Source of the DNA: a virus
Strand: one strand, 5' to 3'
Length of the DNA: 47,950 nucleotides
IMG/VR virus record: IMGVR_UViG_3300017528_000216
Location: 1-47,950 of that record
The notes under the pieces are model-generated. The model did no database searches and had not been told where the DNA came from. It worked only from the letters and a program-made list of their open reading frames with translations. Positions 11,627 through 45,932 of this stretch are shown here, in pieces. The stretch's first letter is position 1. Each line of letters starts with the position of its first letter. Both the position numbers and the translations under genes were made by a program.

Positions 11627-11627
11627 A

Positions 11628-14434: not shown

Positions 14435-14435
14435 C

Positions 14436-14864
14436 ATGAGGAAACTATTAACAATCGCGCTGCTGCTCTTAACGGGCAGCAGCCTCTACTGCCAAGTCAT
14501 TAACCTGTCCACTCGTGGATGGGTTGGGCCGAGCGATAACATCTTAATCGCCGGTTTCATTCTGGATCGCCAGTCCACCATCATCGTCCGAGGACTCGGG
14601 CCGACCCTGTTGGGATTTGATCCCAATTTCCAGGTTCTGTCCGATCCGATGGTGGCGATCGCGGATTCAACCGACAACATCATCTACTTCAACGACGACT
14701 GGACGACTGACCCGAAGGCGTCGGAGTTGGGTGATTTAACCCCGCACAATGAGAAGGAAGCGGCCATGAAGGTAACACTGCCAGCAGGTCGCTACACCGT
14801 CCTGCTGATCGGATACCGTAACGGAACCGGCATGGGGCTGGTCGAAATGTACTTCGTACAATGA
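14436..14864 (+). CDS. Secreted protein with Verrucomicrobiota-type exoprotein domain
   Basis: From the ATG at 14436 the product is 142 aa, with a signal peptide (MRKLLTIALLLLTGSSLYCQ). It is followed by one compact domain: NLSTRGWVGPSDNILIAGFI, IIVRGLGPTLLGF, DPMVAIAD, NDDW, then TLPAGRYTVLLIGYRNGTGM and GLVEMYFVQ. From memory this is the repeat unit of large secreted proteins of Verrucomicrobiota and other soil bacteria ('STRG-VG-GDN--I-GF', 'GLVEVYD'). A single stand-alone copy in an early phage operon suggests acquisition from the host and a role at the cell envelope. The call rests on remembered resemblance. Confidence 0.7.
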   Translation: MRKLLTIALLLLTGSSLYCQVINLSTRGWVGPSDNILIAGFILDRQSTIIVRGLGPTLLGFDPNFQVLSDPMVAIADSTDNIIYFNDDWTTDPKASELGDLTPHNEKEAAMKVTLPAGRYTVLLIGYRNGTGMGLVEMYFVQ

Positions 14865-18064: not shown

Positions 18065-18357
18065 GCCTGCGATCCTCGACAATTTACGTTGAGCCCAAGA
18101 CGGTGCGGCGGCTCCTCGTACTGGTGAAACTGTATCCAGAGCGAGTTGCAGAGATCGGCAGCGGTAATGCTCCTCGTGAAAAAACTGCTGACGAGCGGGC
18201 TGATGCGATTCTCAATGAAGCGATTAAAGAGAAGTACCCACAAGTAATTGCTCTCGAAAAGGAACTGGCAATCACAGAAAAGGATTTTATGGAGCGAGCG
18301 AAAAACAACATTCTCGCTGAAGTTGAACAACAAATAATGAAAGGACAATTAGAATGA
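18061..18357 (+). CDS. Small hypothetical helical protein
   Basis: From the ATG at 18061, which overlaps the preceding stop as ATGA, the product is 98 aa. It opens with a strand (STIYVEPKTVRRLLVLVKLY) and continues as long charged helices (EKELAITEKDFMERAKNNIL). The short strand plus helix might be a ribbon-helix-helix. Its immediate position after the putative annealing protein suggests a partner. Confidence 0.7.
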   Translation: MSLRSSTIYVEPKTVRRLLVLVKLYPERVAEIGSGNAPREKTADERADAILNEAIKEKYPQVIALEKELAITEKDFMERAKNNILAEVEQQIMKGQLE

Positions 18358-18812
18358 GAAAGTTAGCAGTTATAATTGCGCTCCCGCTAATCACAGCGAG
18401 CAGCGCGTTCGCAGGGGATTTTGCACAAGCCTATGACGCGAGTAAAGGCCCCTCCACACTAATAGCGGCGATCATCACCCTCGCCATTATGATCGTCGGT
18501 TCGATCATCTTGGTGATGCGTGACAAAGGCAAACGGTTGCCACTTGCCACCATCGCTACAGTAATCGCAATGATGCTGGCAAGCGCAAACGCGGGCGACT
18601 TCGCCAACGCTGCCGATAGCGGATATGGGCCGAGCAATAATATGTGGAATAGGTTCGGCTCATGGTTCGGTTCATTCTGGACGAGCCATTTTAGCTGGGA
18701 GAATGTTACCGACTCGTTCGGCAGATTTACTCCCGTGCCGAGCGCGACTCCAAGCTGCGGTGACGGTAGATGCGGCGGTAACGGCGCGTCCCCGCCACGC
18801 CAACAGAACTAA
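18354..18812 (+). CDS. Membrane protein with signal peptide and repeated GDFA box
   Basis: A 152-aa product. A signal peptide (VIIALPLITASSAFA) is followed by GDFAQAYDASKGPS, then a hydrophobic helix (IAAIITLAIMIVGSIILVM), a basic stop (RDKGKRLP) and a second helix ending ASANA. The box recurs after this as GDFANAADSGYGPS. The tail is Trp-, Ser- and Pro-rich with a CGDGRCGG end. Repeats outside the membrane suggest an envelope-exposed protein. Not recognised. A strong terminator lies nine bases after the stop. Confidence 0.7.
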   Translation: MRKLAVIIALPLITASSAFAGDFAQAYDASKGPSTLIAAIITLAIMIVGSIILVMRDKGKRLPLATIATVIAMMLASANAGDFANAADSGYGPSNNMWNRFGSWFGSFWTSHFSWENVTDSFGRFTPVPSATPSCGDGRCGGNGASPPRQQN

Positions 18813-29767: not shown

Positions 29768-31396
29768 TCATATCTCTATATCGACCGTGTTGATGAACCC
29801 GCCAGTAACGATGCTGCGTAAGACCAGCTTCTTGCTGGCGGTCGTCAGCTTGTATTGCAACTCACGGTAGGGAGGGAATTGCTGAAGCCCAAAGCCACGC
29901 CGTTTTACTCCCACCGAGGGCAATAGGAAGGGGAGCTCAACCGGCAGGACAACTGAGCCGCTGACGGTGGAAAAGGTTTTGAATGCTTCCAGATCGCCAC
30001 CGTCGCGGATGATCTGCACCGTCACATCGGCAGAGGATCGGTAAAACTCGAACTGGCAGTTGAACCCCTGCTTTTTGCAGACTGGCTCCTTGTGATCGAA
30101 GGCTTTGGTCAGAACCGTGGTCGGGATATTGCGAATCCCAAGAGCGTTGATGTCCTGATAGGTGGCGTCCACTTCGTTGTCCACCGTCACGTAGTCGAGC
30201 CATTCCACCACCGTCCCGTCCGTCTGCCCGAACAGGAGCCTCGGTACTCCGTTGACTGTTCGGAATGACCAGCAGGTCGGTGTCCAGCCTGTCCAGGTGC
30301 CGTGCCAGCTACTTGTCAGGACATTGTAAACCGCGACAAAGTTGGGCTGGGTTGCACTGTCCAATGGGAGTGCTAAAAAGTATCTATTATTCCAAAAAGT
30401 AGCGTTGGCGGTGTTAATAGCGGCAGGATTGATTCGATCAATTATGTCTTGGATGGGATAGCTGAGTGGATCGCCGATGTCCGTTTGAGTCTCAGCGGCG
30501 AGGGTGCGCTGGACGCTTCGGACTCCGCTGGTCGTCAGCATATAGACATCGCCCCCGACCTGACATGCCGTGGCTGGGGCCAAACAGCCGATGGCAAGGT
30601 GGATTGGTTTTTTCTCGAAACCAGCGATGGTGTTGCTCGGGTCTTGAACCTGCAACTGCGGGTCGCAGTTGATGTACCAAAGGCTGTTCCGCTTCATCAC
30701 GATCAACCGGAAATCAGTCCACGGACAAATGCCGGTCACGGGGATTGCATCACCTGAAACAGTGAGTGACCACAGCGCCCGATCCCAGACCGTGCCTTCC
30801 AAAAACTGCGAGAAATAGATCGCTTCCGGCTCAGTCGGCCCGCCCGTGACAATCAATCGACCCGTGTGCCATACCATCCACCGCGGGTTAGGTGGAGGAT
30901 GTGCGTTGGTGGTGGTTCCAAGACTGCTCCAAGCCGTTCCGTTCCATACTTTGATCGCTGTCTCTTGCCCTGGGAAAATGAGAAAGAGTTTCCCGCCTGC
31001 TCCCATCACCATGATGATGCGCTCGGTCAGTCCGCCAGTGTGAGTGTAACTGCCAAGGGCGACCCAATCGGCCCCATCCCATTTCCACATTGATCCTTCA
31101 TTGCCGGTAGCGACCGGATACGAAGCCGAAGGCGAATCGTAGTAAGCCAAGCCTTCAATGAAACTGTTGGTTGAGGGACCGCCTCCGATCGGAGTTGCGG
31201 CAGCGTTCGCCAGCCGGATTGTGCCGCGCCGGGTTCTCAGTTCACCAGTGCGGGTGACATCGCAGTTGATAAGCTGGGCCGACTCGTTCTCGGACAAAAG
31301 ATTGGCCCGCGTACCACTGGCCTGACCACCAATGAACGAACCAATTCCGTCATATTGGATTTGATCGTCGAGAGTCTCAATGTTTAGAACTGGCAT
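29768..31396 (-). CDS. Tail protein, beta-propeller/stabilisation-like
   Basis: A 542-aa product. [20 protein letters not shown] then [12 protein letters not shown] near residues 33-64 is the opening I associate with podoviral tail hub or packaged-DNA stabilisation proteins. Regular W-containing blades follow ([59 protein letters not shown]), as in a beta propeller. The C-terminal 100 residues are a beta sandwich. It lies downstream of the spike-like genes and upstream of the ejection genes. Exact homology to P22 gp10 or T7 gp12 cannot be decided by eye. Confidence 0.7.
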
Positions 31397-32297
31397 CGCG
31401 GGAAAGTTTGGATGTTCCGAGTTTGAGAAGTTGTCGGGCGCTTGAAGTGGTGGTGTACTGGACGGGCGGCAGCGGAGGCGACTGGGTTTGATCGCAGCAG
31501 TTGGTATCGCTGTAGCGCGTCACCACATCGGAAAAGAAGTAGGTCGTGTTGGCCTCAAGCCCGCCGATCGTCACTGTCATCGGGCCGTTTTGGATGGCAT
31601 CGCCGCCTTCAACTTGCGTGGTCGGAGGGTTGGTCATGCCGTAGAGAATGGTGTAGCCGTCGCCTGCGGTTGCAGTCCACTGGACTGTGACCGTGACGTA
31701 GGCCACACTCGGGGATGGTGAAGGTGTCGCGGTGGGAGTTGGTGTGGGTGGCGTCGGTGTTGCTGTTGGGGTTGGCGTTACCGTGGGCGTCGTGGTCGGC
31801 GTTGGCGACGGTAGCGGTGTGGCTGTGGGTGTCGCTGTCGGTAACGGAGTAGGCGATGGTGAAACTGGCGGACTGGCTGTGGCTGTTGGCGTTGGCGTTG
31901 GGACTGGCGACACTGTGGCTGTGGGTGCTGGAGTAGCCGACGTTACGCTGAAATTGACCAGCTTCGGAGTCCCAGCGTTCCCAGTTCCATTGAGCGCGCT
32001 CCACGGCGTAGCAGTGAGAGAGTGATTCCCAAGCTGGTTCGGCGTAAATATGTACTGGAATGGTGCCGCCGAGTCGATAACGATGGTGCCGCCTTCCCGT
32101 CTGAATACGACGCTCCTAGTTGTCGCATTAACCTTGGCCTCAATCACGTAATTACTCCCTGCTGTCAGCACCGTTCCGTTGATAAAAGAACCGCCACTGT
32201 AAACCAAGTCCTCGGTAATAGTTGGAGGCGCGGTCGCCTGCGGCTGCTGCGCCATCACTGCCACCACAGTCAAAAGGAGCAATGCTGCTGTTTTCAT
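31377..32297 (-). CDS. Secreted-type tail protein: Ig-like, Pro-Thr linker, FN3
   Basis: A 306-aa product with signal peptide [18 protein letters not shown]. Residues 25-120 form an Ig-like beta domain ([20 protein letters not shown]). About 120-205 is a Pro-Thr/Ser-Ala linker ([11 protein letters not shown] units). Residues 205-285 form an FN3-like domain ([20 protein letters not shown] then [11 protein letters not shown]). The linker is a DNA minisatellite. It overlaps the following gene. Architecture is that of a bacterial exoprotein rather than a classical tail fibre. Confidence 0.8.
31705..31925 (-). repeat. Pro-Thr-encoding minisatellite
   Basis: About 220 bases of GT-rich, low-complexity DNA (GGTGTGGGTG, GTTGGCGTT, GTGGCTGTGG units on the plus strand). 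It encodes the flexible linker of the Ig/FN3 protein. The array is irregular and in frame. Slippage could vary the linker length. A smaller Pro-Thr block encodes the linker at about 42820-42860. Confidence 0.7.
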
Positions 32298-33790
32298 AAA
32301 GAAGGTATGCTAGGGAAAGCTGGAATTGCTGGGAGCTTTGTCGTTGTGCCCAAGGCCGGAGCAGTCATGTCCACGTAGCTGGTGACTAAATCTGCTATCG
32401 CTACCGCCGTATCGTAGCTCTGTGTTGCTGTTGCTGTGACTTTCTTATATTGCGCAGTAATAGTCATTCCGGTCACAGCAATTCCGTTGGAGCAGGCTTG
32501 CGCCTGGGGGCTCCATGTTCCATTGGTGGTATCGGTGTCGGCGGTGAATCCGTTGAAGCTCGCAGTGCTTTCTGCCCCGACCATTGCCACCACGTAATGT
32601 CCATTCGCGATTGAAGATGTTGTCAGGCTCGGTGTTGCTGTGGTTGCTGGACTCCCTACATTTCCTCCGGTGTATCCAGTGGCATCGGCAAATTCGAACA
32701 CTAGAAATGTTTTTGCTACAATGGCCGCGCTAACATAGGTAATGGTCACGGTATCTCCCACAGCCAAGGCCGTAGTCATTGGCGCGGTATAAATACCTAT
32801 CTCTACACCCGCGCCAGCTATGCCGGGATCGTTGACCGTATTTTGCCGCAAGGTCCACGTATTGCTCTTGCTGTCGGTTAAGGTCGAAGGAAAGTTTCCG
32901 ACTGCCCCTGGCCCGGTGGCATTGTTGTTATCAGCCGCAACACACATTACCGCCTGAGAATTTTGCGCTATCGCATTGGTAAAGGTTAAAGTGTTAGCTG
33001 CGTCCGAGGTGTTCGTTGATGTTGTAACCAATCTCGTAAAGGCAGGAACTTCTGCTATCTGTAACACGTTGCTTACATTATCGGCGCTTGTTATTACAGG
33101 ATCGAAAGTTTGGGTTGAAGCTGTCGTTGTTTGAATCTTGTACTGGCTCATTGTGCTCATGCCAGTAGCGCCCGTTCCGGTACCGATGCTTTGCTTTGTA
33201 CTCCAAGTGCCGTTGGTCGTATCGGAATCGCCCGTGTAGGTGTCGGGGCTTTCTGCGCCGTTAGTCCACAGACACATTTCTCCCACGAACATAACCCCCG
33301 ACGTTCCTTGTTGTCCGGTGCTGGCTGCGATAGTGGTATTCCCGTAGCCCCTTGTAATAAGGATAGTTCCGGCTGTGCCCGCAACTGCTTCGGTCAGTGT
33401 CCAAGCCTTCGCCGTGACGTTGGCGGTGGTATAAGTCATAACGATGCTGCCGCCCGTAGTTAGTCCATTGCTCAGGATTGCCGTATAGATTGCGCTTTCG
33501 ACTGAAGCATTGGCTCCTGCGCCAGAAACAGGCAACGTACCCCTCCTATACCAGATGTTGCCCGCGGAATCGGTGATCGACGCAGGTGTGTTGGTCGCGC
33601 TGTTTACGGCATTATCGCCGTGCCAGCACAAGATTCCCATCGCGCCGGTCGTGAAGTTGCTCCCCGGCGTTATCGTTGTCGATGCCTCGGAATTGCTGTT
33701 CGCTCCGGTGCCGCGGTCTGCGCCGGTGATGGCCGCGAGTGTCATGCTCGCCGGAAACAGAAGCGCCGCTAAGAGAGAACGAAACTTCAT
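32294..33790 (-). CDS. Secreted-type protein with two tandem beta domains
   Basis: A 498-aa product with signal peptide [20 protein letters not shown]. The rest consists of two similar halves. One has [20 protein letters not shown] and [17 protein letters not shown]. The other has [20 protein letters not shown] and [15 protein letters not shown]. Each half looks like a Thr/Ser/Gly-rich beta sandwich of the kind found in secreted proteins. It overlaps both neighbours by ATGA. It is probably an adhesin or receptor-binding component. Confidence 0.75.
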
Positions 33791-36700
33791 GGCAAGACCT
33801 GAATCTCTGCCGGTGTTGGAGTCGGATTCGCTGCGGTAACAGTAACGGTTACAGTATCAGAGCAGGTTGTGCCGACACACGCCGTCAGGTCGTAAGTTCC
33901 AGCGATGAAACTCGTACCATTGAGCTCATACGGAGCGGTCGTATCGGAGTTGATGGTTGTCCCATTGCTCTTAAAATCCACCGTTCCAGGCGTACCGCTC
34001 ACGCTTGCGGCCATATCAATCGTAGCTGGGGCAGGCGAAAAGTTGGTGTTGTTTGCTGGTTTTGTCAGACTGACTTGAGTTGGATTGATTACATTAAGGG
34101 TGAATGGGTCTTGCGTAGCGTTGCCTTCGCTGTTATGCGCCGTGATCTTGAAAGCGTAGGAGGTAGGTGAGGCTGGCGGATTGCCGCTCATGGTCAAAGT
34201 ACCATCGCCGTTATCCGTAGCTGTAAGGAAGGCAGGTTTAGGCGTCGGCGCTGGCGTAAAAGTCGGGGCCGGATTGCCGGTAGTGCGCACGGTGAAGCAG
34301 TTCACAGTCGGAGTGCTGCTGCAATCCGCGGCCACGCTCGCGGTAAAGGTAGTGCTGTTCGGGCTTGTAATTGTGGGCGCGGTGTTGGCGCTGGCCGGAG
34401 TTGCTACCAACGGGTGCGGGTAAGTGAAACCCGGAGCGCCTGGTCGATAAAACGAAGAAAACTCAGGCGTGATTGTGTTGGGTGTGGCGGCAGCACGCGG
34501 GAGCGGCGGACTCTGCGGTCCGATGGTGCTGCAAAGTGTTTGCCCGGTCGCCGGATCGACAAAGGTTTTGCCCCAATCTGCCCCAACTCTAGTCTCTGGC
34601 CGAACATCATCCGATGTTCCAGCTATCGTGTCTGGGCCGTTCGTGCCAGCCAACGCGGTGTCATCCCACTTGTAACCCTTATCAAATAACGGCTTGAAGA
34701 GTTTTTCATCTGCGGTCAGATCGGCAAAAGTCAGGCCAGGATGAAATTGAAGTGACCGGATAGAGGTGGCATTACCAAGAGCCTGTTGATAGCCGCGGTC
34801 TATATAAAGAACCTGAAACGGATCACCGGCTGTGAAATAATTTATTTCGTTCGTTGATTGACTCCAATCAGAGTAGCCTCCCGGTCCCGTTCCCACCCGC
34901 TTGCGTGTGCCCCAGTTGTAGGAACCGCCAACGGTATCGCTCGTCCAGTAAGGATTCTGGCCTTCAGCATTGTCGTTCGCGAGCCGCGGCGGTCTGAAGC
35001 CAGGAACAAAACCTGGATTCATTGGCCCTCGACCAACTACCCCAAAGTACTCACCTACTTTTCTGATCTCATAGAAATTGCCGGAAGTGTTTAGGGTTAT
35101 GTCCGATCCGCAAGGGTTCGTTCCGCGAAAGGTAAAGTTTATGTTACCTGCTCCGCTCCCAGCTGTGCTGGCTGTTATTACTTTCCAAGCAACGAAAGCC
35201 TCACTGTTTGGTCGGCCCCGACGAACCGTTGGGTTCCTGAGAACAAAACCTTTGAAGTAATTAGCTGGGATGGGATTGGAAGCCGAGCATGGCGAAGCCC
35301 CGCACAGATTCGTTCCCGTCACAGTCGCGCCCGTCGCGCCGTTAATAATGGCTTTCCCGTTTAATTGATAGCTAGTGTAATTGCCAGCCGGAATCGAGAC
35401 AGTGGCGTAAACATCGCCAAAACGAGTATCGCTATCTTTGCCGTGAACCACCGTATCCGTGGAATTCTGACCCGAGCTAGTAAAGCCTGTGATTATGTCT
35501 AGCCCAGGGCCACGAACGGGCGGTTCGTAAGTGGCAAAGACATCGTGATGGAATCCCTTGAAATCAAAGGGGCCACGCTGGTTTTTGTCCAACGGGTTCA
35601 AACCATCCGGTCCCCAGTAAAAATCATCGTAGTTGTAAACTGAAAATGCTCCGCATGAGTCCGTCCCACCGGAAAGCCCACCCCAAGAGTTCATGCCCGT
35701 GCTGTTGCTCCTAGCACCAGCCTGCATGGTCATGTAATTATCTACGCTGACGTTTTCGCCATCCCGCTGCTCGATCGGGGTAATATCGTCGCGCTGCTCC
35801 CATGAGTCAGTAGGTTGCACGGGTGCGGGCGATGGGCCTAGGGTCGGCACGCTGCGCAGATGGTGGTTCTTGGTGTACTCTAGTAATACTGCGCTAAAAC
35901 GCTGCGTTCCACTTTCGCGAACGCCATGAGTAGCCAGTGAACCCCAGGTCGTATTATGACGGAAAATGAAAATCCCTCCGCCCTGTGTCGTTCCCGAGTT
36001 ACTCCCGCAGTCAATTATCGCTGCTGTTCCAAAGTGGAAGATATTATCCTCGAAATAAAGCCCATCTATGTTTCCGGCAATGTCTTGCTTGTTTGGGGGC
36101 AGATAAGCCGAAGCGTAATCGCCATAATCGCCGTTCCCGTTTACACTGCTAGGAAACGCCCATCCAATCGGGCTGCTGGAATGCGCTCCATCTGCACGCA
36201 CGGTCAAAGGTCGGAGAAGATTCCAGTCTAACTCGCAATGGTCAATCACTCCAAATACCCAGCCTGACCATTTTAGCCAATCCCCCCCACTATTCGGCGT
36301 CGTGCCGGTAAGTTGTAGCGTTTGGCCGCTAAATGCTGCCTTTGTGCGCATTTTTAGATTAACGTGAGTGCTGTCCACGAATTGAGTAATTCGGGTCTGT
36401 ATTTCAAGCTTGGAATTGTCCCCTGGTATATAAACCACCCTGCCTGCATCACCAGCGGCAAAGGTTCCGCCAGTACAAGTTAAAGCTGTTGAGTTAGCGG
36501 CGGCGCTGCATCCAGTCATGGTTTTCCCAGCCCCGTCATAGTAGGGATTACGGAAAGCACAGTAACCGACCCTCATACCACCCGTAACCGTCGTTCCCGA
36601 TACGGTGTAAGTGCTAACGCCATCGACCCGCAGTTGGTCATCCTTACTATAAAAGTCTATGTTATAGATGAGCCCTGTTTTCCTCGGAGTAGGATTGCCG

Positions 36701-37017
36701 CATGTGTACCAGACCATCCCGCCAGTACCGACAGTGTTACCGTGGATAGTTGGCCGGTGCGCTATTGTCCCGTCAGCCCCGTAGAGCTCAATGTTAAAGC
36801 CCTTGTTAATTCGCAGGGTTCCATTCCATTCCCACATTCCAGTCGCTTCACCGCTGGAATCAGGAATAACAATCCGATCCCCTGACGCTAGGATTGGCGG
36901 CGTGGTGTTATTTATGATGTTCTGAATGGTTGGAAGGTTCCCATCAGCAGGAGTCCAAACCGTTGCCCATGCGCTACTCGCCAAAACTAGGAATGTGATG
37001 ATTCGTTTTAATGCCAT
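33787..37017 (-). CDS. Large beta-helix (pectate-lyase-like) tail spike with signal peptide
   Basis: A 1076-aa product. A signal peptide (MALKRIITFLVLASSAWA) is followed by a pectate-lyase-like beta helix (about 25-560). This has NKGFNIELYGADGT, YNIDFYSKDDQL, VIDHCELDWN, YFEDNIFHFG and IFIFRHNTTW, the repeating N/H-rich turns of parallel helices. The C-terminal 250 residues hold two Ig-like domains (APTITSPNSTTF then VSLTKPANNTNF) and a Pro-Thr tail. The fold suggests a polysaccharide depolymerase. Catalytic residues cannot be assigned by eye. The signal peptide is atypical for a tail spike. Confidence 0.75.
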   Translation of the reverse strand: MALKRIITFLVLASSAWATVWTPADGNLPTIQNIINNTTPPILASGDRIVIPDSSGEATGMWEWNGTLRINKGFNIELYGADGTIAHRPTIHGNTVGTGGMVWYTCGNPTPRKTGLIYNIDFYSKDDQLRVDGVSTYTVSGTTVTGGMRVGYCAFRNPYYDGAGKTMTGCSAAANSTALTCTGGTFAAGDAGRVVYIPGDNSKLEIQTRITQFVDSTHVNLKMRTKAAFSGQTLQLTGTTPNSGGDWLKWSGWVFGVIDHCELDWNLLRPLTVRADGAHSSSPIGWAFPSSVNGNGDYGDYASAYLPPNKQDIAGNIDGLYFEDNIFHFGTAAIIDCGSNSGTTQGGGIFIFRHNTTWGSLATHGVRESGTQRFSAVLLEYTKNHHLRSVPTLGPSPAPVQPTDSWEQRDDITPIEQRDGENVSVDNYMTMQAGARSNSTGMNSWGGLSGGTDSCGAFSVYNYDDFYWGPDGLNPLDKNQRGPFDFKGFHHDVFATYEPPVRGPGLDIITGFTSSGQNSTDTVVHGKDSDTRFGDVYATVSIPAGNYTSYQLNGKAIINGATGATVTGTNLCGASPCSASNPIPANYFKGFVLRNPTVRRGRPNSEAFVAWKVITASTAGSGAGNINFTFRGTNPCGSDITLNTSGNFYEIRKVGEYFGVVGRGPMNPGFVPGFRPPRLANDNAEGQNPYWTSDTVGGSYNWGTRKRVGTGPGGYSDWSQSTNEINYFTAGDPFQVLYIDRGYQQALGNATSIRSLQFHPGLTFADLTADEKLFKPLFDKGYKWDDTALAGTNGPDTIAGTSDDVRPETRVGADWGKTFVDPATGQTLCSTIGPQSPPLPRAAATPNTITPEFSSFYRPGAPGFTYPHPLVATPASANTAPTITSPNSTTFTASVAADCSSTPTVNCFTVRTTGNPAPTFTPAPTPKPAFLTATDNGDGTLTMSGNPPASPTSYAFKITAHNSEGNATQDPFTLNVINPTQVSLTKPANNTNFSPAPATIDMAASVSGTPGTVDFKSNGTTINSDTTAPYELNGTSFIAGTYDLTACVGTTCSDTVTVTVTAANPTPTPAEIQVLP

Positions 37018-40000
37018 GTCTTAAACCAGTTACCCGTGCCACTTGCTACCCCAGTCCACGAGACAGTTGGATCGCTTGATTTTTGAATTGCTTTGCCCGC
37101 TGCTGTTCCTGAAACCCAGTTCGGATGCTTGCCGGTAGTATCAATCACGCTCGTCTTGAGCACGATCCAGTAAGTTGTGTTCGCGGTTAAGCTCACCCCG
37201 CTAAAGGTGAAGGACGTAGGCGTGGCGATTCCTAGTGTAGCGGTGCTGCCGATAGCAAAGAGATCAGCATAAGTTGGCATCGGGCTGTTGGTGGAAGTGG
37301 CTACAATTCCAGCCGGAGCAAGCGCAGGAACACCAGCATTGTCCGCGTAGATATAAGCCGTCACGGTCCCGTCGCGACTCGCTCCGGTATAGAACAAGGC
37401 AACATCAATTCGGCAAATAGCGGTGTTGCCTGCGGTAGCGGTGAACTTGGTCGCCAGCCATTGCGTAGTGCCGGTGCCGAATGTCGATCCACTGGTGGAG
37501 ACAGGTAGGAAACTATCACCTAGGGAAGAACAAGCCGCCGTCGTTGTGGCGCTGGCCTCGGTCGCAAAGGATGACTGTCCGCCAGTGTTGACCGATCTTA
37601 CCTTGTAGTAATACAGTGTCCCAGGAGTAAGTCCGGTGTTGGTGTATGTTGTTACTCCTACGCCTCTGGTCGTGATAGGAGAAGTGCCGTAGCTGGTATT
37701 GTTAGTAACCGAGCGAAAGACTTCAAATCCGGTTTCGTTGGTGGAATTATCCGTCCAGCTTAGATTTATCGCAGTGCTGGCGGGCGATCCAACCACAGCC
37801 GAGAGTGCAGAGGGAGCAGCCGGAAGGGTTGCGGTGGTGAAGTTTGTTATCGGTTGCTCCCATTCCCATACGCCAGAGCCGCCGACGTAAACGCCTTTAA
37901 GCTGGTCTGTCGCTCCGTTGGTAGCGGTAAGAGTTACTAGCCCAGCCCCACCGCCCGAAGTCGCGCTGTCAATCGGCAGATTTATAGTTCCCGCAGCGCC
38001 TGATCCGGGTTGCACCAGCATCAGCAAGACTTGCATCCCGTCGAACGGACTCGGAATTAGCAGGTTGTTCACGCCATTGCCGAGCGAGATGTACGCCTTT
38101 TGCGCCCCAGATACCGTTGGGTCTGGATTAAGAGTGACGTTTCCGCCGCTAGTGGACAAAATTTGGAAACCCTGATTAACCGTCGCCTTTTGCGAAGGAA
38201 CGCTCCAATTACTCGTTCCGTCCGATGAATAAAAGCGCGTCCCGTTGGCCTCGTCGAATGTCACGCTAAGGGGACCGTAGTTAAAGGTATCAGTTCCGTT
38301 CGTCGAGGTAACGGTCACGGGATGCGACGTGCTTACTGAGCCGGAGAAATCGACAACCTTTATGAAATTAGCTGGCTTGTACAGACCAGCGTCCGGTAAA
38401 GTTATAGTAAGGGTTCCGGCCAGGTTTCCAGCAATCCAAACAGTATCAATGCAAGTGCCGAGGCTACAGGTGTTGGTCACGTTTACGGTCGTGCCGCTGG
38501 CAATGGTGTTGTCCTTCGTTCCTATGGTAAAGACGTTGGGCGAAAGGTTGGTAGGAGAGATCGGTCCCTTACTCACGCTCCCGCTAGAGTTGATATTGGT
38601 TAGCACTCCCTCGGTGCCCGCGTTGGTTGGCACCACGGAAACGCTGTCGCCTATATTAGCAGGAGCGAATTTCCACGGTGGCGTTTGGCCGGAAGGTTGA
38701 TTGGAGACATCCACGATCACCTTCTGGGTAGCGTCGGATGGGTCTTGAAAAGCTGTGATGGTGCTGGCGGTAGTGACAACCTGCCACCCAGTCTGATTAA
38801 CATTCTCAAACTCAACAGATTTGCCGCCATACACTCCGGTTGCGCCACCGATAAACGGCCTGAAATCGGCAGTGCCGCCGTTCAAAGTGTTGGTGCCGTT
38901 GCGCCGGAATGATCTACCGAAGTTGCCAGTAGTGACGTTATCGGTGTAGATGATTCGCCTCCCTGCGGGATAACTGGCCGCTGGTGGAAGTGTTATCACC
39001 CTGTCGATGGAACTGAGAGCTACTGTTTCGATGACCGCGGTAGCTCCGGTCGTCCAAGTTGCAGGAGCCGCGCTGGTGCCATTGTTGGCTAATGTCACTT
39101 GTGAATCGACCTGTCCCGCGCTGATGTCAGTTCGTAACGTGGTCGCAGAGATCGCAGTGACGGTATTGTCGTTGTTGATGCGAGGATAAGTCTGCGCGCC
39201 TGGGTTGGTGAGAGTGAACAAGTTCTGGCCAACTGTGGTTCCACCGAGGGTTGTGCGCGCGGTAGCCGCACTCATAAAGGTTGGAGCCGCCGCACTGCCG
39301 CTTGAGTTGCCGTAGAAGGTCAGCGCCGAAGCATTGGGCTTATCGAAAGTTATCTCTGGCGTAGTGCCGGGCGTCGCGATGCTGATTGATAAAAGATCGG
39401 TGACATTGTTCACCCGCGTCAGGGTCGTAACGGTTCCGGCACCGATCGCACTCCTGAACCCCGTGTCGGACAAGGTGGATACCGAGTTGTCCGCATTGAT
39501 TCGAGGGAAAGCAATGATGCCTGGGTTGCCCAGACTCATGAAAGAAAGGCCAGTTTCGGTAACACTCAGGTTGGTCGGAACTGCGGTGCTTCCGGTGCTG
39601 TTACCCTTGACCGTCCGCGCGGGCATGGTCGCCAGCGAGAAAGTGTTGGCAGTAAGAGCAAGGCCGCTTCCTGCTGAGTAAGTGGTGCCTCCGGTTCCGG
39701 TCAGAGTATAAGCAATCGAAGTGCTATTGATTGTGATCGGCTGCGGAGTTGTTACACCCCAGCTTGTTGCTGTCTGAGTGGTGCCACTGGAAACAAACAC
39801 GCTTCCTGAAACTTCCGTGCCGGTATCAGCGTCGGTCGCGCGTGACCAAGCGCCTGCCGCCGTAACGTAGATTCCATTCTGGCTTGCCGTGGATTGATTC
39901 TTTACCAGCACACGACTGGCCGAAGTCAGCACCCCGTCGATGGTTTGTTCGCCTGAGAGAGTCAGGTTGGCAGTCGATGCCGTTAGTACTGCCGGATGGG

Positions 40001-40670
40001 GCGGGCCGACATTTGCTGCCGTGTCCACATAAGATTTATTGGCCGCATCTGAGGCCGACGTTGGATCGGCAAGGTTAGTGATTTTGAAACCAGCAATCGA
40101 CACATCCGCAGTAGGTGGAGCAACGGTATCTAGTCTCAGTGCGCCAAGGGTGGTGTTGATCGTTCCGATGGCCGAAGTGTTGCTGGCAATATTACCCTGC
40201 ATCGCAGTGTTAGCACTGGCCTGCGCGGTCGAAATTGGTTTGTTGGCGTCGCTCGTGTTATCGACGTTATTTAAGCTCAACGCCACTTTCGCCGTGGCAG
40301 CGTCCATGAAGGTTGGCTCGTCAGTCGAGCCAGTACCGTTGCCGAAGAACGTGAACGCTGGCTGTGAACTAAAGATCGCGCTGGCCGACCAGTTATCGGC
40401 CCCATCATTACTGAAGCTCACAGGACTGATGAAAATGCCTGGAAAGGAAAGTGTAATGGAAGTCACCCCACCACCGCCTCCACCACCACCGCCACCACCG
40501 ACCACATTTACGCCGTTTACCTGAAGCTGACTGGGATTGAAGTTGACTACTCCGGTATTAAGAACATGGCGGGTCAGGGCATCCACCACCACAGCTTCGA
40601 CTGCGTAAAGGGTTGAAAAACCCACGCTCAGTCCACAAAAGACAAGTGTAAGTAAGGTTTTGCGTATCAT
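37008..40670 (-). CDS. Long tail-fibre-like protein with signal peptide and FN3 domain
   Basis: A 1220-aa product. The N-terminus is hydrophobic and Sec-like (LLTLVFCGLSVGFSTLYAVE). An 11-Gly run lies at residues 58-68. Repeats follow, including FFGNGTGSTDEPTFMDAATA, KGNSTGSTAVPTNLSV and FYGNSSGSAAAPTFMSAATA. These spaced 'GN-(S/T)G' units are usual in phage fibres. An FN3 domain with INLSWTDNSTNETGFEVFRS lies near residues 975-1065, and a C-terminal beta domain ends at ASGTGNWFKTWH. The repeats are long, variable-region-like, suggesting receptor contact. Confidence 0.8.
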   Translation of the reverse strand: MIRKTLLTLVFCGLSVGFSTLYAVEAVVVDALTRHVLNTGVVNFNPSQLQVNGVNVVGGGGGGGGGGGVTSITLSFPGIFISPVSFSNDGADNWSASAIFSSQPAFTFFGNGTGSTDEPTFMDAATAKVALSLNNVDNTSDANKPISTAQASANTAMQGNIASNTSAIGTINTTLGALRLDTVAPPTADVSIAGFKITNLADPTSASDAANKSYVDTAANVGPPHPAVLTASTANLTLSGEQTIDGVLTSASRVLVKNQSTASQNGIYVTAAGAWSRATDADTGTEVSGSVFVSSGTTQTATSWGVTTPQPITINSTSIAYTLTGTGGTTYSAGSGLALTANTFSLATMPARTVKGNSTGSTAVPTNLSVTETGLSFMSLGNPGIIAFPRINADNSVSTLSDTGFRSAIGAGTVTTLTRVNNVTDLLSISIATPGTTPEITFDKPNASALTFYGNSSGSAAAPTFMSAATARTTLGGTTVGQNLFTLTNPGAQTYPRINNDNTVTAISATTLRTDISAGQVDSQVTLANNGTSAAPATWTTGATAVIETVALSSIDRVITLPPAASYPAGRRIIYTDNVTTGNFGRSFRRNGTNTLNGGTADFRPFIGGATGVYGGKSVEFENVNQTGWQVVTTASTITAFQDPSDATQKVIVDVSNQPSGQTPPWKFAPANIGDSVSVVPTNAGTEGVLTNINSSGSVSKGPISPTNLSPNVFTIGTKDNTIASGTTVNVTNTCSLGTCIDTVWIAGNLAGTLTITLPDAGLYKPANFIKVVDFSGSVSTSHPVTVTSTNGTDTFNYGPLSVTFDEANGTRFYSSDGTSNWSVPSQKATVNQGFQILSTSGGNVTLNPDPTVSGAQKAYISLGNGVNNLLIPSPFDGMQVLLMLVQPGSGAAGTINLPIDSATSGGGAGLVTLTATNGATDQLKGVYVGGSGVWEWEQPITNFTTATLPAAPSALSAVVGSPASTAINLSWTDNSTNETGFEVFRSVTNNTSYGTSPITTRGVGVTTYTNTGLTPGTLYYYKVRSVNTGGQSSFATEASATTTAACSSLGDSFLPVSTSGSTFGTGTTQWLATKFTATAGNTAICRIDVALFYTGASRDGTVTAYIYADNAGVPALAPAGIVATSTNSPMPTYADLFAIGSTATLGIATPTSFTFSGVSLTANTTYWIVLKTSVIDTTGKHPNWVSGTAAGKAIQKSSDPTVSWTGVASGTGNWFKTWH

Positions 40671-40948
40671 GGCAAAAATCCGGCAACGACCTGCCAGTGT
40701 CGGGTTAAATCATCTGCGGGTTGGATTTGGGAAGTGTCGGCGGGGTTAGCGGCATCGGCCTGCAATTCGACTTCAGCCCCTACCCGGCTGGTTCCAGTTC
40801 CAGTGATGATGTCAAAGACTGAACCGTTGGCTAGGCCGACAGTGGGAACCAGTGAGAGGGAGAGGCGATCGGTGATGTCGAAGCGAGTAATCCGAACGCT
40901 CTCTGAACTGGGGAACGCCTGTGAAAAATCAAGGATAGGTGAGCTCAT
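40667..40948 (-). CDS. Small hypothetical tail-region protein
   Basis: A 93-aa product that overlaps its neighbours (ATGA). DITDRLSLSLVPTVGLANGS then FDIITGTGTSRVGAEVELQA forms beta strands; a short acidic end follows. Not recognised. Its place between adaptor and fibre suggests a tail attachment or fibre connector. Confidence 0.65.
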   Translation of the reverse strand: MSSPILDFSQAFPSSESVRITRFDITDRLSLSLVPTVGLANGSVFDIITGTGTSRVGAEVELQADAANPADTSQIQPADDLTRHWQVVAGFLP

Positions 40949-42525
40949 ACGAAATCTGCTTTATCGCATAACCAATTTGAGAAGTAGTCGTCCTCCAACG
41001 CGCTCCACGGAGCCGACACCCACGGAATGACGCGGCTGCCGACGCTGTTCTGTCGGACTTCCAGATCAAGGAGGGATTGAAGGGAGGCGTCCGCCTTCAT
41101 CTTGCACTCCGCTGCCCCCGGCTTATCTCCCAGCTTGGAATAGGCGTCGGAGGTAGCCATGTGAATCAGGTAATTGGCAATGTTACGAATACCCGGAGTG
41201 TCCTCGTCCTGAACCAAAGGTTTCATCGCGCGCTTGCCTAAAACCAGACAGTGATGGGCGGCAGTTGAGTGCGGCTGAATCCAAAGCCGCATCCGTTTGC
41301 GCTCCCGCTCGTAGCTGCGGAGCGTTCCAAGATTAACGCCACTGGCGGCTCCGGTAATAGTGATGTCGCCAACCGTAAGCTGCTTGGCCGCGGTCAGAGG
41401 GGTGTCGTAGGTGAAGCCGGTGTAAACTGGACTGGTGCCATTGAGATTGACCGACTCCTGCAAAATGTCTCCCGCGCTCTCCCCGCGAACCATGATCGGC
41501 GTGTTGTCACTGGCATCGGTGCTCACAAAAGCCAGCCGCTCGCGGATGGGTGGGAGGCGTGATACCGCTACCGGAGTCAAGATGGTGTAGGCCACAGGAA
41601 ATCCAGTAGCTTGCTCAAAGATGGTGGGAGTGATGGCGAAGTAGGTCGAGAGATCGACTGGCCCGAGGGTAAGCCCTTTGGTGTCGGCACGGCACTGAAT
41701 CACGCTTGAGAAATACCAAGGGAGAATCACCTGCTCGCCATCGGAATCCACTTGGGCCATGACCAAGCTCTCTGGCCAGAGGTAGGCGTCATAGACCTGG
41801 ACGTAATTGCGCCGGAGAAATTCTCTCACCATTATGCCCACATCCGGCGTCCACTGACCGATCCGCGCGCAAACTGCGTCAGTCATTTCCGCGAGGCTGT
41901 TCCCCGCAACGGTCAAATTCTTCGCCCTGCGCGGCACATTGGTTTGCGACTGTTCCAACGCGACGGCATCGGCAAATAGCTTCTCGGCTTCGGCAAACTT
42001 CTGCTGCGCTTTGCCGTACTGTCGGTGGTACTCCAGCATGTCGGCTTCGCCGTAAGCCAGCAAAACCTGATCTATCCCGCGAATGATCGGGCTGTCGCCG
42101 TCATTAACCAGCGGTGGCAGAGCCTTCTTTCCGATCACCAGCATTGAACCGATTACCGCTGGAATCGGGTAAAGCCTGATGCGCTTGGTGGCGTCGTCCT
42201 CAGTGTACTCCTGGTAGTACTGAGGAATGCCAGTGCGCTCGAAAATGTTCGGATCAGTCTCGACAAAGTAAGTGTCATCAACTGGATCGAGGAAATGATC
42301 GCCGTAACGGATGGAAAGGACGCGATCGACTCCGCTGGGGAGAGCCACGCTGTCGGTGCCAGCGACCGAAGCAATGGTGTCGCGCCGACGACCGTCACGC
42401 CAGTCGAAACGGTAATAAACCCACTGGTAGCGATTCTGGATAAATGCCTTGCAGGTTGTCTGCGAATCGGAGTCGGTGGTGCCGACCTTTTTGCAGATGA
42501 TCGAGCTATAGCCGCCCAAGTCCAT
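40945..42525 (-). CDS. Tail adaptor/tubular protein with internal duplication
   Basis: A 526-aa product made of two related halves. First half: FIQNRYQWVYYRF (28-40), PNIFERTGIPQYYQ (92-105), LVIGKKALPPLV (129-140). Second half: FLRRNYVQVYDAYLW (236-250), PTIFEQATGFPVAYT (300-314), LVLGKRAMKPLV (427-438). The second half has an inserted beta domain of about 80 residues (318-400). Each half resembles the podoviral gp4/gp11-type adaptor that binds the portal with helical bundles and a beta domain. It is normally a single domain of 180-220 aa, so this is a fused pair. Confidence 0.75.
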   Translation of the reverse strand: MDLGGYSSIICKKVGTTDSDSQTTCKAFIQNRYQWVYYRFDWRDGRRRDTIASVAGTDSVALPSGVDRVLSIRYGDHFLDPVDDTYFVETDPNIFERTGIPQYYQEYTEDDATKRIRLYPIPAVIGSMLVIGKKALPPLVNDGDSPIIRGIDQVLLAYGEADMLEYHRQYGKAQQKFAEAEKLFADAVALEQSQTNVPRRAKNLTVAGNSLAEMTDAVCARIGQWTPDVGIMVREFLRRNYVQVYDAYLWPESLVMAQVDSDGEQVILPWYFSSVIQCRADTKGLTLGPVDLSTYFAITPTIFEQATGFPVAYTILTPVAVSRLPPIRERLAFVSTDASDNTPIMVRGESAGDILQESVNLNGTSPVYTGFTYDTPLTAAKQLTVGDITITGAASGVNLGTLRSYERERKRMRLWIQPHSTAAHHCLVLGKRAMKPLVQDEDTPGIRNIANYLIHMATSDAYSKLGDKPGAAECKMKADASLQSLLDLEVRQNSVGSRVIPWVSAPWSALEDDYFSNWLCDKADFV

Positions 42526-42944
42526 TATTGTCCTCCTCCTCCCTGACCATTGTAAGTCGCGCTGGCGATTGCCGAATCAGTCAGGCCAGTCTTGTAACCC
42601 AATGCCTTAACCGTCTTGCTGGCGTTGCCAGTGACGCTTATGGTTCCACCGTAAACCAAGGTGCTGCCCTGCGGAGTCGCGCCGCTGTGAACTGGTGTCG
42701 TGCCTGGAGTGTTGGATACCGTATAAAAGATAGTGGCACCAGAAGTCGCGCACGTAATGGAAACTGAAATTGGCTGATCGCCGCTGGAAGGAAACATCAC
42801 CGGAGTCGCCACTACTGTTCCCGGTATCGGAGTCGGTGTGGGCGTAGGCGTCGCGCCCGGAGGGGTTGGAGCGGGGCCAGTTTCGGCCACCATCGAAAAC
42901 GGCAGGCCGAGTTGAGCTAGAAAGAGAGCGAGTAGGGCTACCAT
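42525..42944 (-). CDS. Secreted-type protein with Pro-Thr linker and chitobiase-C-like domain
   Basis: A 139-aa product. Signal peptide MVALLALFLAQLGLPFSMVA, then a short Pro-Thr linker (PTPTPTPTPIPG), then a compact beta domain with ISVSITCATSGATIFYTVSN and KTVKALGYKTGLTDSAIASA. The latter is the chitobiase/beta-hexosaminidase C-terminal-like module, common in verrucomicrobial exoproteins ('SG-TI-YT---G-P'). The end is GQGGGGQ. It lies among tail genes. Confidence 0.7.
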   Translation of the reverse strand: MVALLALFLAQLGLPFSMVAETGPAPTPPGATPTPTPTPIPGTVVATPVMFPSSGDQPISVSITCATSGATIFYTVSNTPGTTPVHSGATPQGSTLVYGGTISVTGNASKTVKALGYKTGLTDSAIASATYNGQGGGGQ

Positions 42945-43634
42945 TTAATAGTTCTGGCTCGCGGTTCCGTAAACTACGCTTCCGATGTGGATGAAGGTGT
43001 AGAGATCAGTCTTGTTTACCGTGGCTGTTTGGGTCGGAGCCGTGCCACCTCTCCATGTGATCCCACCTGCCACTGTGAAAGCTGCGGTGTAAGGCCCGCC
43101 AGAAGCGGCTTGCTTTATGGCGACTGTCACCGTTTCGCCATCTGAAATGTTTGTCAGGGTGTAAGTGGTATTGCCAGCAAGAGTGCGGCTGAAGGTTCGG
43201 GCGATTGAGCAATCAACGGTCGTCCCACCAGCGGTATTGGTAGCATCTGAGGTGTCAGCGGGAGTGAGAAGTCGGAAAGTTGGCGCTGCCGCCGCTCCAC
43301 TGTTCGGGCCTCCCAAGAAAGTGTTGGCAGTTCTGGTTGTGGTTGTGACAACGGCGCTCCCAGCGCCAAGGAGGTTGGCCAGTGATACTGCTTTGAGGGT
43401 ACTGGTGGAGGCTTGGTTGAACAGGAAAACATCGGTCGTGAGGGGAGTTGCAGTAGCCTTGTTAGAAAGGAAGGTCGAGAGGATGGTTGCGCTATCCACC
43501 AAGGTATTGAGATCGGATGCGTGAACCGTATCCCCATCAGTGAAGGTGTGACCTTTGGAAAGGTCTTGCGCGTAAAGCTGGCTGAAAGCCAGAGTTATGA
43601 ATCCCGTTAATGAGAATATTACCCTATAACGCAT
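42945..43634 (-). CDS. Secreted-type tail-region protein
   Basis: A 229-aa product. Signal peptide MRYRVIFSLTGFITLAFSQL with an AQ end, then LSKGHTFTDGDTVHASDLNT and a Thr/Ala-rich beta part. 'TFTDGDTV-A-DLN-LV-' is a common opening of phage structural proteins, here preceded by a leader. The end has TVAGGITWRGGTAPTQT then YTFIHIGSVVYG. RBS AAGGAAT. It probably forms part of the tail appendage. Confidence 0.7.
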   Translation of the reverse strand: MRYRVIFSLTGFITLAFSQLYAQDLSKGHTFTDGDTVHASDLNTLVDSATILSTFLSNKATATPLTTDVFLFNQASTSTLKAVSLANLLGAGSAVVTTTTRTANTFLGGPNSGAAAAPTFRLLTPADTSDATNTAGGTTVDCSIARTFSRTLAGNTTYTLTNISDGETVTVAIKQAASGGPYTAAFTVAGGITWRGGTAPTQTATVNKTDLYTFIHIGSVVYGTASQNY

Positions 43635-43655
43635 AACGATATATTCCTTTTAACA

Positions 43656-44357
43656 TCAGTCGCTCTCGTCCATGTAAGCCACCACCGGACTGCCGCTGGC
43701 CGCGATAACCTGGATCAGCGCAGTGCCGCGCCACTCGATTGATTCCCCTGCTTTAATCGGCATCCCGTTGGCAGTCGTTACCGTGGCCGGTCCCACATAG
43801 ACCGTGATAGTGGTATCGGTGTTTTTGAGGATTGCCCGACGACGGGTGGCGTTAGCGGCAACGAGGGTGCCTGCGCTGCCGGAGGTAGTGACTTGGCCAG
43901 TCGCAGTGGTAGTGACGAACGCTCCTTTTACATTTAGCGCAGTCGTCAGGTTCGGCTGATCGGTGGCAATAACGACCCGCGGAGTCGATGCGCTCTTGTT
44001 GCCCGAGTTGGTATCAACCGTAGTCGGCCAGTTGGATTCGGTGGTGCGTAAACCACCAGCGGTGGTCAGCGACAACGCACTCGTTTGCGCGGTGGTATAG
44101 GAAGGAGCAGCCGTGGTCACTGCCGCTAGGCCCAACATGCCGGATTGACCGGAGGTGGTTGATCCCTGCGTGACCACGCCAGAGGAGCCGCCGCTAATGG
44201 TGAGCCCGCCGTCGTTGCCAACAAGCAGGAAATGGAATAATCCATCAGCGCCGATCCCACCGATCATCTGGCCTTGATTTAGAGCGGTGCCTGGTTGACC
44301 GATGTCAGCGCCGTAGGCAAACGCTGGAATTAAGAGTAGGAGTAGTAGTTTTTTCAT
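43656..44357 (-). CDS. Secreted-type structural protein with phage appendage motif
   Basis: A 233-aa product. A signal peptide (MKKLLLLLLIPAFAYGADIG) is followed by a Gly/Thr-rich section and NKSASTPRVVIATDQPNLTT, then ALNVK. The latter is a signature of phage appendage or capsid-fibre proteins in uncultured phages. The C-terminal part has RRRAILKNTDTTITVYVGPA then GESIEWRGTALIQVIA, a small beta barrel. Thus a virion module is fused to a leader. It lies between the lysis cassette and other tail genes. Confidence 0.75.
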   Translation of the reverse strand: MKKLLLLLLIPAFAYGADIGQPGTALNQGQMIGGIGADGLFHFLLVGNDGGLTISGGSSGVVTQGSTTSGQSGMLGLAAVTTAAPSYTTAQTSALSLTTAGGLRTTESNWPTTVDTNSGNKSASTPRVVIATDQPNLTTALNVKGAFVTTTATGQVTTSGSAGTLVAANATRRRAILKNTDTTITVYVGPATVTTANGMPIKAGESIEWRGTALIQVIAASGSPVVAYMDESD

Positions 44358-44891
44358 TTAGAGATAATGCGCGCCGCCGAGTACCCGATAATCGACGGAC
44401 AGTATTCCTTTGTTTATGGTTCCGCCGAGCTTCTGGAAGGCGACGGGTGTTAGGTCTATTCCGTGGTTGGTGTAACGGGCTGGGCCTAAATCAATCAGTG
44501 GCACATCGAGCCAGTTCCCAGCCGGGGTGCCAACTCTTACCTTGGTAAACCAAGGAATGCGCGGGAGCGGTGAACCCTCAGTAGCAGCGAGGCCGAAGCC
44601 GTGCATGGGTAGAGCGCAACCCACAACATCGGGAGTTTTGAGAGTGCTGACTCCGCTCGCGGTTTCACCGTTGTCCTGCTTGTCCAGCGCGGTGCCGAAC
44701 CATGTGGCGAGAACGCCCCGGACAACAAGATCAGGGCCGACGACTACGGCGTGGAAATAAAAACCTTTGTCTCCGATAAGAAGTTCCTGCGGAGGAGCTT
44801 TCTTGGAAAACTCCATGAAGCGCGAATGCCGCCAACTCATCCGGCGTTGCAAGGGAACGTGTTTTTTATAGCGGGCTGGTTTAAGACTCAT
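44358..44891 (-). CDS. RlpA-like double-psi beta-barrel protein (putative endolysin)
   Basis: From the ATG at 44891, overlapping the papain-gene stop as ATGA, 177 aa. A basic N-terminus is followed by the barrel: ATWFGTALDKQDNGETASGV (62-81), then VGCALPM, PWFTKVRVGTPAG, PLIDLGPARY and GIDLTPVAFQKLGG (about 144-157). These resemble RlpA and lytic-transglycosylase 3D/DPBB domains with an Asp in IDLGP. Likely a peptidoglycan-cleaving lysin. There is no signal peptide, so it would need a holin or wall access. Confidence 0.75.
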   Translation of the reverse strand: MSLKPARYKKHVPLQRRMSWRHSRFMEFSKKAPPQELLIGDKGFYFHAVVVGPDLVVRGVLATWFGTALDKQDNGETASGVSTLKTPDVVGCALPMHGFGLAATEGSPLPRIPWFTKVRVGTPAGNWLDVPLIDLGPARYTNHGIDLTPVAFQKLGGTINKGILSVDYRVLGGAHYL

Positions 44892-45673
44892 GTTACACCT
44901 ACCTCCTCGATTAACCGGATTGACCACAGATCGTCGGCCAGATTTGCGTCGAGCAAGTACTCGTAGGGCATGGTGAAGTACCCGTTTACTCCCCAGTCGG
45001 TGCCCCATGAGTTACGAACAATGATGATTTGCTTGTCGTGATCGTAGCCGCAGCCGACTACGGCGTGACCGCCCAGCATCGTTTCTTCCTGTTTCGGGTA
45101 TTGGAGGACTCCGCTTTTGGCCACCTCATCACTTTCAAATCCATCGTAAACGCTGAATCCAAAGGCGAATGGAAAACCATCAGCTAGACAACCGCGAACG
45201 TCCTCGATCCGCTGACAGACTCGCTCATAAGCGATGGCCTGATGTTTCTTAGCCTCGCGATAGGATTTGCGCGGCGGCTTCTTAGAAAATTTGTCGATCT
45301 CGTATGGCCACATTTCTTCGGGCGGCGCACCGTCAGCGGACACAACTTTGATCCCGCTCCGAATCTGAGCACCGGAATCCTCCCCAGTCGTGCCTTCCAT
45401 TACTCGCTCGCCATAATAGATAAAAAGGCGGGATGGAGTGAAGTTTTCGCCGCCACCGGGCTGTTTCAGTTGGGCATATTCCAAGAGCCCAGCGATAGAT
45501 TGGGCGGTACAACTGCCAAGGTCGCCCTGGTCATAGCAGGGAGGAAAGTGGTCGCGCAAATCAACCAGTGCAGGCAACGGTTCTACCCTCGGTCGAGCTA
45601 CGCGAAGCTTATCTCGGTGATCCGGCAAATCCGGCTTCCAGCCGTACCACTTAATGTTGAGCGGTTTTGGCAT
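44888..45673 (-). CDS. Papain-like cysteine peptidase (C1 family)
   Basis: From the ATG at 45673, 261 aa. A proline-rich propeptide-like beginning is followed by the catalytic triad region: CYDQGDLGSCTAQSIAG (Q49, C55), GGHAVVGCGYDH (H203) and VRNSWGTDWGVNGYFTMP (N221). All papain active-site positions are present. There is no secretory signal. Phage-borne papain-like enzymes are rare. It lies between a lipoprotein and an RlpA-like lysin, so cross-bridge or envelope peptide cleavage during lysis or entry is plausible. Host-targeted proteolysis is the alternative. Confidence 0.9.
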   Translation of the reverse strand: MPKPLNIKWYGWKPDLPDHRDKLRVARPRVEPLPALVDLRDHFPPCYDQGDLGSCTAQSIAGLLEYAQLKQPGGGENFTPSRLFIYYGERVMEGTTGEDSGAQIRSGIKVVSADGAPPEEMWPYEIDKFSKKPPRKSYREAKKHQAIAYERVCQRIEDVRGCLADGFPFAFGFSVYDGFESDEVAKSGVLQYPKQEETMLGGHAVVGCGYDHDKQIIIVRNSWGTDWGVNGYFTMPYEYLLDANLADDLWSIRLIEEVGVT

Positions 45674-45932
45674 AGGCGTGGGGACGGGCCGCGATTTCGC
45701 GCAGAGCGCCAGCCGGAACATTCGGATATTTGGCGCTGAGTTTGCCGACAGTGGTGGCTTGAGTGTTTGCTCCCTCTTTTGTTCCGAGGAATCCGATGAC
45801 GGTTATTGCGGTTGAAGCAATGTCGGCAATAAGCTGCTGATTTTTGGGATCATTGAGCCATCCCTGTGCCGTCTGCATGGAAGCGCATCCGGTGTAAATC
45901 AACAATAGAGCTAAAGTTACGAGTTTTTTCAT
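45651..45932 (-). CDS. Small lipoprotein (spanin-like candidate)
   Basis: A 93-aa product with lipoprotein signal MKKLVTLALLLIYTGCASMQ, with lipobox YTGC. The mature part begins TAQGWLNDPKNQQ and contains IADIASTAITVIGFLGTKEG, possibly a second hydrophobic segment. It overlaps the papain gene by 23 bases. Position in the lysis cassette and lipid anchoring fit an outer-membrane spanin subunit (Rz1-like); the sequence is not diagnostic. Confidence 0.65.
   Translation of the reverse strand: MKKLVTLALLLIYTGCASMQTAQGWLNDPKNQQLIADIASTAITVIGFLGTKEGANTQATTVGKLSAKYPNVPAGALREIAARPHAYAKTAQH

Follow-up and report, generated by a model that had tools for sequence, protein, structure and literature searches.

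The fibers of tailed phages are taught as products of cytoplasmic assembly. In filamentous phages, the M13 coat proteins pIII and pVIII carry Sec leaders, are cleaved by signal peptidase and are incorporated outside the cytoplasm. Phage T5 makes Llp, a single small exported lipoprotein that blocks the receptor and is neither part of the virion nor encoded in the tail operon. Here we describe a soil phage (IMG/VR virus record IMGVR_UViG_3300017528_000216) whose tail region encodes a series of proteins with apparent Sec leaders. The window, by which we mean the whole stretch of DNA analyzed, is the entire virus record of 47,950 bases. Its 127-base direct terminal repeat makes it probable that the genome is complete, at about 47.8 kb. 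An earlier note on this DNA had pointed to seven leadered open reading frames (ORFs) in this region, and all seven are present, on the minus strand between positions 31377 and 44357; we refer to each by its lower coordinate. We favor, at a probability of roughly 0.6, the explanation that the leaders work as Sec signal peptides for proteins of the tail-fiber or spike type; after export and cleavage, these proteins would fold in the periplasm and join the virions at lysis.

Like the M13 coat proteins, the window proteins appear to be virion proteins made with Sec leaders, but pIII and pVIII are anchored in the membrane and enter the virion as it is extruded, with no lysis, and M13 has neither a tail nor head-first assembly. 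T5 Llp is similar as an exported phage protein that affects receptor availability. The window leaders, however, lie in a tail operon, and none of the seven ends in a lipobox cysteine, so they are not of the Llp type. Adaptor and propeller-type proteins are shared with P22-like podoviral tails, to which spikes are added late, but the P22 tailspike and tail proteins scored as leaderless. Prophages of Porphyromonas gingivalis (Nixviridae) contain genes whose Sec leaders obey the Bacteroidetes Q-rule, in which signal peptidase I substrates carry Gln at +1 (PMC5837995), but these genes were described as function-unknown, possible outer-membrane modifiers and were not tied to tails (PMC10367356). 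Phages of Cellulophaga baltica resemble the window in having consecutive Sec-leadered distal-tail proteins beside leaderless head and proximal tail proteins, and the leadered proteins are annotated as detected by tandem mass spectrometry (MS/MS). They differ in that their host belongs to the Bacteroidota and their leaders have Q-rule sites, and we detected no homology between their sequences and those of the window. Long tails are indicated for phi19:1 and phi39:1 by genes annotated as tape measures, whereas the window phage resembles a podovirus, in keeping with our not recognizing a tape-measure or tail-tube gene among the window genes. In the open-access literature searched (titles, abstracts and passages, with subscription literature outside the scope), we found no paper remarking on the Cellulophaga-phage leaders and none describing leadered tail fibers as a class. 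We claim novelty for the class only within that literature.

Leaders were scored with a home-made scorer of n-, h- and c-regions that was run with positive and negative controls. Eleven textbook signal peptides of the E. coli type scored 9.2-13.9, and no leader was found among the virion proteins of P22 and T7. Six of the seven window genes scored 11.1-12.8, as high as OmpA, DsbA or LamB. Each of the six has a positive n-region, with a net charge of +1 or +2 ahead of the hydrophobic run, a hydrophobic h-region and small residues at -3 and -1. The gene at 43656-44357 (233 amino acids, aa; score 12.8) carries the leader MKKLLLLLLIPAFAYG at 44310-44357 and has a weak match to phrog_30212. The gene at 42945-43634 (229 aa; 11.1) encodes a tail protein of what we call the SKGHTFTDG family, with the leader MRYRVIFSLTGFITLAFSQLYA at 43569-43634 followed by QDLSKGHTFTDG. 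The 1220-aa tail-fiber protein at 37008-40670 (11.4) begins with MIRKTLLTLVFCGLSVGFSTLYA at 40602-40670, and the 1076-aa protein at 33787-37017 (12.3), which has a C-terminal Big_7 domain, begins with MALKRIITFLVLASSAWA at 36964-37017. A 19-residue leader at 33734-33790 precedes a 498-aa protein with a repeated 'DTTNGTW' module (32294-33790; 12.1), and a 16-residue leader at 32250-32297 precedes a 306-aa protein with a Pro/Thr-rich linker (31377-32297; 11.8). The remaining gene, 42525-42944, scored 4.1. Its hydrophobic N-terminus (42885-42944) lacks a positive charge and is conserved in sequence (LAQxGLPFSM), unlike a signal peptide. The claim of seven Sec leaders thus held for six genes and failed for this one.

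We estimated the background rate from ORFs of at least 120 aa in viral loci, using a stricter cut; 16 of 879 (1.8%) passed as leaders. Six of the 10 genes in the tail region are leadered, which is far above chance (binomial 7e-9 against this background, a rough value because the genes are not independent). The scorer found no leader on the adaptor, propeller, ejection or capsid proteins of the window. These features lend good support to the prediction that the six window leaders are export-competent Sec leaders. Only 42945 and 31377 fit the Q-rule, and the host of the window phage may not belong to the Bacteroidota. The leadered proteins contain an excess of closely spaced Cys pairs (9 observed versus 3.4 expected, P 0.003), with no enrichment among other window proteins; this is modest evidence that fits oxidative folding.

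Apparent leaders could also arise from mis-annotated starts, or persist as functionless remnants of captured exoproteins. The Big_7, fn3 and CHB_HEX_C_1 domains found here do occur in bacterial exoproteins as well. However, several leadered starts overlap the preceding stop by 4 bases, and the rest overlap by 10, abut or trail by 21, and this tight packing fixes their positions. In-frame starts at the mature end were scarce or absent in the genes that we checked. The ratio of non-synonymous to synonymous change (pN/pS) in leader codons is about 0.4-0.55; synonymous change exceeds non-synonymous, and the leaders are therefore translated and constrained. We rejected wrong starts on these three grounds. 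Purifying selection also argues against functionless remnants, as do the retention of leaders through protein swaps and divergence and the finding that leaderless homologs are phage tail modules, both described below. This explanation is largely refuted, and we give it hardly any weight.

The earlier note had proposed a search for relatives in other uncultured phages. Two contigs, one represented by L002/L004 and the other by L003/L005, proved to be closely related to it (L numbers denote viral loci or contigs compared with the window). Both are leadered in the same gene slots, those of 31377 and 33787 among them, and both carry additional leadered genes on the upstream side of the adaptor. 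At the position of 33787, every genome encodes a large protein with a leader, and what follows the leader seems to differ in sequence between genomes. A wider search using the propeller and adaptor proteins found nothing beyond these two contigs. We also searched prokaryote genomes for a host; alignment A5 yielded no relative, and the fiber yielded three uninformative matches.

Leader divergence was judged on alignments A3, A4 and A5. In the SKGHTFTDG family, the leaders MRYRVIFSLTGFITLAFSQLYA, MKRTLLSLFVSMALIHAYA and MKRTLAVALLSLVLNHIYA belong to proteins that are 65-77% identical overall. The leader diverges, while its charge, its hydrophobic core, the YA/QD junction (the slash marks the predicted cleavage point) and the mature part are kept. 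The 43656-44357 ortholog in L004 has a diverged leader, MKKCHFLIILLIPSFVFG, followed by ADIG, and the leaders of 37008-type fibers vary in length and keep LYA. The alignments thus combine divergence in sequence with retention of a physical pattern, which suggests that the leader is kept as a signal peptide and not as a specific binding peptide, since the latter would be sequence-conserved.

This pattern bears on the idea that the leaders are not used for export but act as cytoplasmic assembly or anchoring peptides, or are trimmed by a phage protease, with fibers attaching inside the cell as usual. The tails of known phages do assemble in the cytoplasm, the host protease OpdA removes 20 aa from the N-terminus of P22 gp7 (according to a record note), and the charge-less, sequence-conserved N-terminus of 42525-42944 would suit such a role. 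The other leaders, however, vary in sequence and length but retain their charge, hydrophobicity and cleavage motif, those of Cellulophaga phages obey a host-specific Q-rule, and leaderless homologs do without the peptide. We consider a non-export role improbable. The suggestion that the leader is a virion-attachment peptide merely resembling a Sec leader is disfavored by the same observations.

Many homologs of the leadered proteins lack a leader. Leaderless members of the SKGHTFTDG family from other uncultured phages start with MGLSKGHTFTDG or MPDITKGHTFTDG, matching ...LYA/QDLSKGHTFTDG in the leadered form. The 42945 homolog in MW202524 starts with MGTLGRGYTF and lies near a stabilization protein gene, and in L089 the fiber, adaptor-like, propeller-like and further virion-type genes follow the order of the window without a leader. 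In the 32294 family, the leaderless start MALTVTSRGTG corresponds to leadered ..QA/ALTITARGT and ..EA/AITVTARGT, and further leadered homologs occur in L005, L096 and L105. The fiber module of 37008 has 78 homologs elsewhere, 75 of them without a leader. Because the leaderless homologs start at the predicted cleavage point, it is precisely there that otherwise complete tail modules of phages gained or lost their leaders. For 42945, 32294 and 37008, these homologs refute wrong starts and make captured exoproteins unlikely. Such homologs had been anticipated as a sign of mis-annotated starts, but their own starts coincide with the cleavage point. They are also ordinary phage tail proteins beginning at the mature end, which disfavors the proposal that exoproteins were acquired as tail parts with their leaders retained. 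A tblastn search of phage records with four window proteins found no close relative; the only matches were of the C-terminal part of 42945, to two Leptospira phages. MW202524 itself (L085, a spring-water podovirus) carries glycosyltransferase and methyltransferase genes between its head and tail genes, at 3147-11978.

The pattern is common to unrelated phages, a point absent from the earlier note. Runs of two to four leadered distal-tail genes occur in L018, L049, L096, L105/L106 and L133/L134. They were located by following fiber homologs and provide no unbiased estimate of frequency. A run of leader-like ORFs in L007 was set aside because overlapping frames make the case doubtful. In cultured Cellulophaga phages, leadered proteins with MS/MS structural notes in GenBank are phi10:1 gp091-094, phi19:1 gp101-103, phi18:3 gp085-087 and phi39:1 gp25-26; phi19:1 gp104 is MS/MS-annotated with a borderline leader. 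In phi10:1, phi19:1 and phi39:1, we checked head and proximal tail proteins and found no leader on any of them. We listed 14 leaders of Cellulophaga phages; Gln stands at +1 in 13 of these, and we conclude that the leaders are tuned to the host's own processing. Two side observations concern these loci. The same gene in the related contigs L134 (8998-9578) and L133 (9061-10299) begins with MKKLILFIALLIPIGLMAQTIPP and MKKLILLPETIPP, respectively, and the L133 version lacks the hydrophobic core. Both phi19:1 gp104 (L123 10480-11820) and phi19:3 gp090 (L121 9888-11228) have a borderline leader and about ten cysteines (MRNIVLILLFFNISFSFGKDYC).

The genomic setting agrees with the earlier note's description of the leadered genes as a set within a virion tail operon. 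The minus strand carries the late genes, including a major head protein (phrog_1357), an SU10-type adaptor, a propeller-type stabilization protein and an ejection-type virion protein, and the leadered genes are interleaved with the adaptor and propeller genes. The leaderless head-tail adaptor at 40945-42525 matches Pfam SU10_adaptor (4.4e-12), and the leaderless propeller-type protein at 29768-31396 matches the 'phage stabilization protein' of MW202524 by tblastn (8e-18). The 37008 protein matches head-decoration and tail-fiber PHROGs (phrog_2647, 9e-34; phrog_11518, 2e-14) and has an fn3 domain, and 42945 has homologs beside adaptor- or propeller-type genes in L089 and MW202524. We detected no homology to known tail or virion proteins for 31377, 33787 or 43656. 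The MS/MS notes of the Cellulophaga phages give good support, by analogy, to the view that the leadered proteins are virion members.

An alternative is that the proteins are exported but never join the virion, but work in free form, as adhesins or enzymes; they would mask or remove the receptors of the infected cell and its debris, or exclude other phages. Such a role would be like that of the T5 receptor-blocking lipoprotein and corresponds to the host-surface modifiers considered in the earlier note. Six genes do have genuine leaders, the proteins in the 33787 slot differ among relatives, and the Q-rule signal-peptide genes of Porphyromonas phages were read by their authors as potential modifiers of the host outer membrane (PMC10367356). 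We nevertheless find this alternative unlikely, although it is the strongest competitor. The leaderless homologs are tail proteins, some of them beside adaptor- or propeller-type genes, the 37008 protein matches fiber and head-decoration PHROGs, and comparable leadered proteins have MS/MS virion notes in four cultured phages. Masking would also hardly need as many as six or seven genes.

The explanation we favor is export followed by attachment at lysis. Fibers and spikes would be synthesized, cross the inner membrane by the Sec pathway and lose their leaders. Their folding would take place in the periplasm as heads, complete with adaptor and propeller, are being built in the cytoplasm; lysis would then mix the two pools, making fiber attachment the last step of assembly. 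Peripheral podoviral spikes, as in P22, can be added to finished particles, which makes attachment at lysis plausible. At the level of predicted features, the comparisons demonstrate leaders that are real, translated and constrained, precisely added to tail modules, kept across swapped proteins and recurrent in unrelated phages. From them we infer passage through the periplasm and attachment at lysis or later.

Several points weigh against this explanation. The evidence on the window phage is sequence alone, the leader scores come from our own scorer and not SignalP, and the Cys-pair signal is modest. No homology was detected between the four window proteins used in tblastn and Cellulophaga phage proteins, so that virion membership is argued by analogy; the MS/MS statements are GenBank record notes, and an exported fiber could co-purify with virions. 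In addition, phi18:1, which infects the same host species C. baltica, has leaderless fibers, and the fibers of crAss001 and phi14:2 are likewise leaderless. The phi18:1 fibers led us to reject a host requirement: leaders would reflect a strategy of the phage rather than a demand of the host. The crAss-like virion proteins were rejected as the origin of the pattern because none is leadered. The phi18:1 protein gp52, which is methylated at R23 in free virions, is also leaderless.

Export might also be partial. Leaders that work inefficiently in the late burst would leave a cytoplasmic share that enters virions and an exported share that acts outside, with both being important. This would reconcile virion membership with host modification, and the evidence for it here is the same as for full export. 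However, the leader scores equal those of efficient E. coli leaders, and an uncut leader on a virion fiber would be costly. We rate partial export as quite improbable, slightly below a role without export.

Other features of the region concern individual genes. The 33787-37017 protein is possibly a beta-helix spike. An AlphaFold model made without an alignment reached a predicted local distance difference test (pLDDT) score of 30, and phmmer matches in the PDB were confined to the C-terminal Ig-like part. The atypical gene 42525-42944 encodes a Pro/Thr-rich linker and a CHB_HEX_C_1/Fn3-associated domain (Pfam PF13290, PF13287). It shares a reading frame with 42945-43634, with one TAA between them and an ATG directly after it, and read-through would produce a fusion. 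Upstream of the leadered genes, a papain-family peptidase (44888-45721), a small lipoprotein (45651-45932, minus strand) and a weak DPBB match (44358-45008) are clustered and possibly form a lysis cassette. The lipoprotein, which is outside the seven genes considered above, has a lipobox (MKKLVTLALLLIYTGCASM) and lies in this presumed lysis neighborhood; its position near a papain-type peptidase gene suggests a diderm host. Beyond the tail operon, two plus-strand ORFs have strong leader-like N-termini, one at 14385-14864 (MRKLLTIALLLLTGSSLYCQ, at an internal ATG) and one at 18354-18812 (at the first start). Adjoining genes of the amidoligase and glutamine amidotransferase types (PHROG matches) lie near structural genes at 8609-10678.

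The possibility raised in the earlier note, that these genes represent a distinct way of deploying receptor-binding proteins, is in our judgment a fair reading. A broader proposal stands at about even odds: a second route of tail assembly in which the receptor-binding apparatus is made through Sec and matures, perhaps forming disulfides, in the periplasm, joining the tail tips only at lysis. Such a route would have evolved more than once, in phages of several different hosts, and exported fibers that stay free may also shield debris from re-adsorption. If this is true, fiber folding, disulfides, chaperones, signal peptidase and the timing of lysis would all join in the acquisition of receptor-binding parts, and annotators would have a rule that a signal peptide is no bar to a virion protein. 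The cultured Cellulophaga phages, already characterized by mass spectrometry, make the question of export directly testable.

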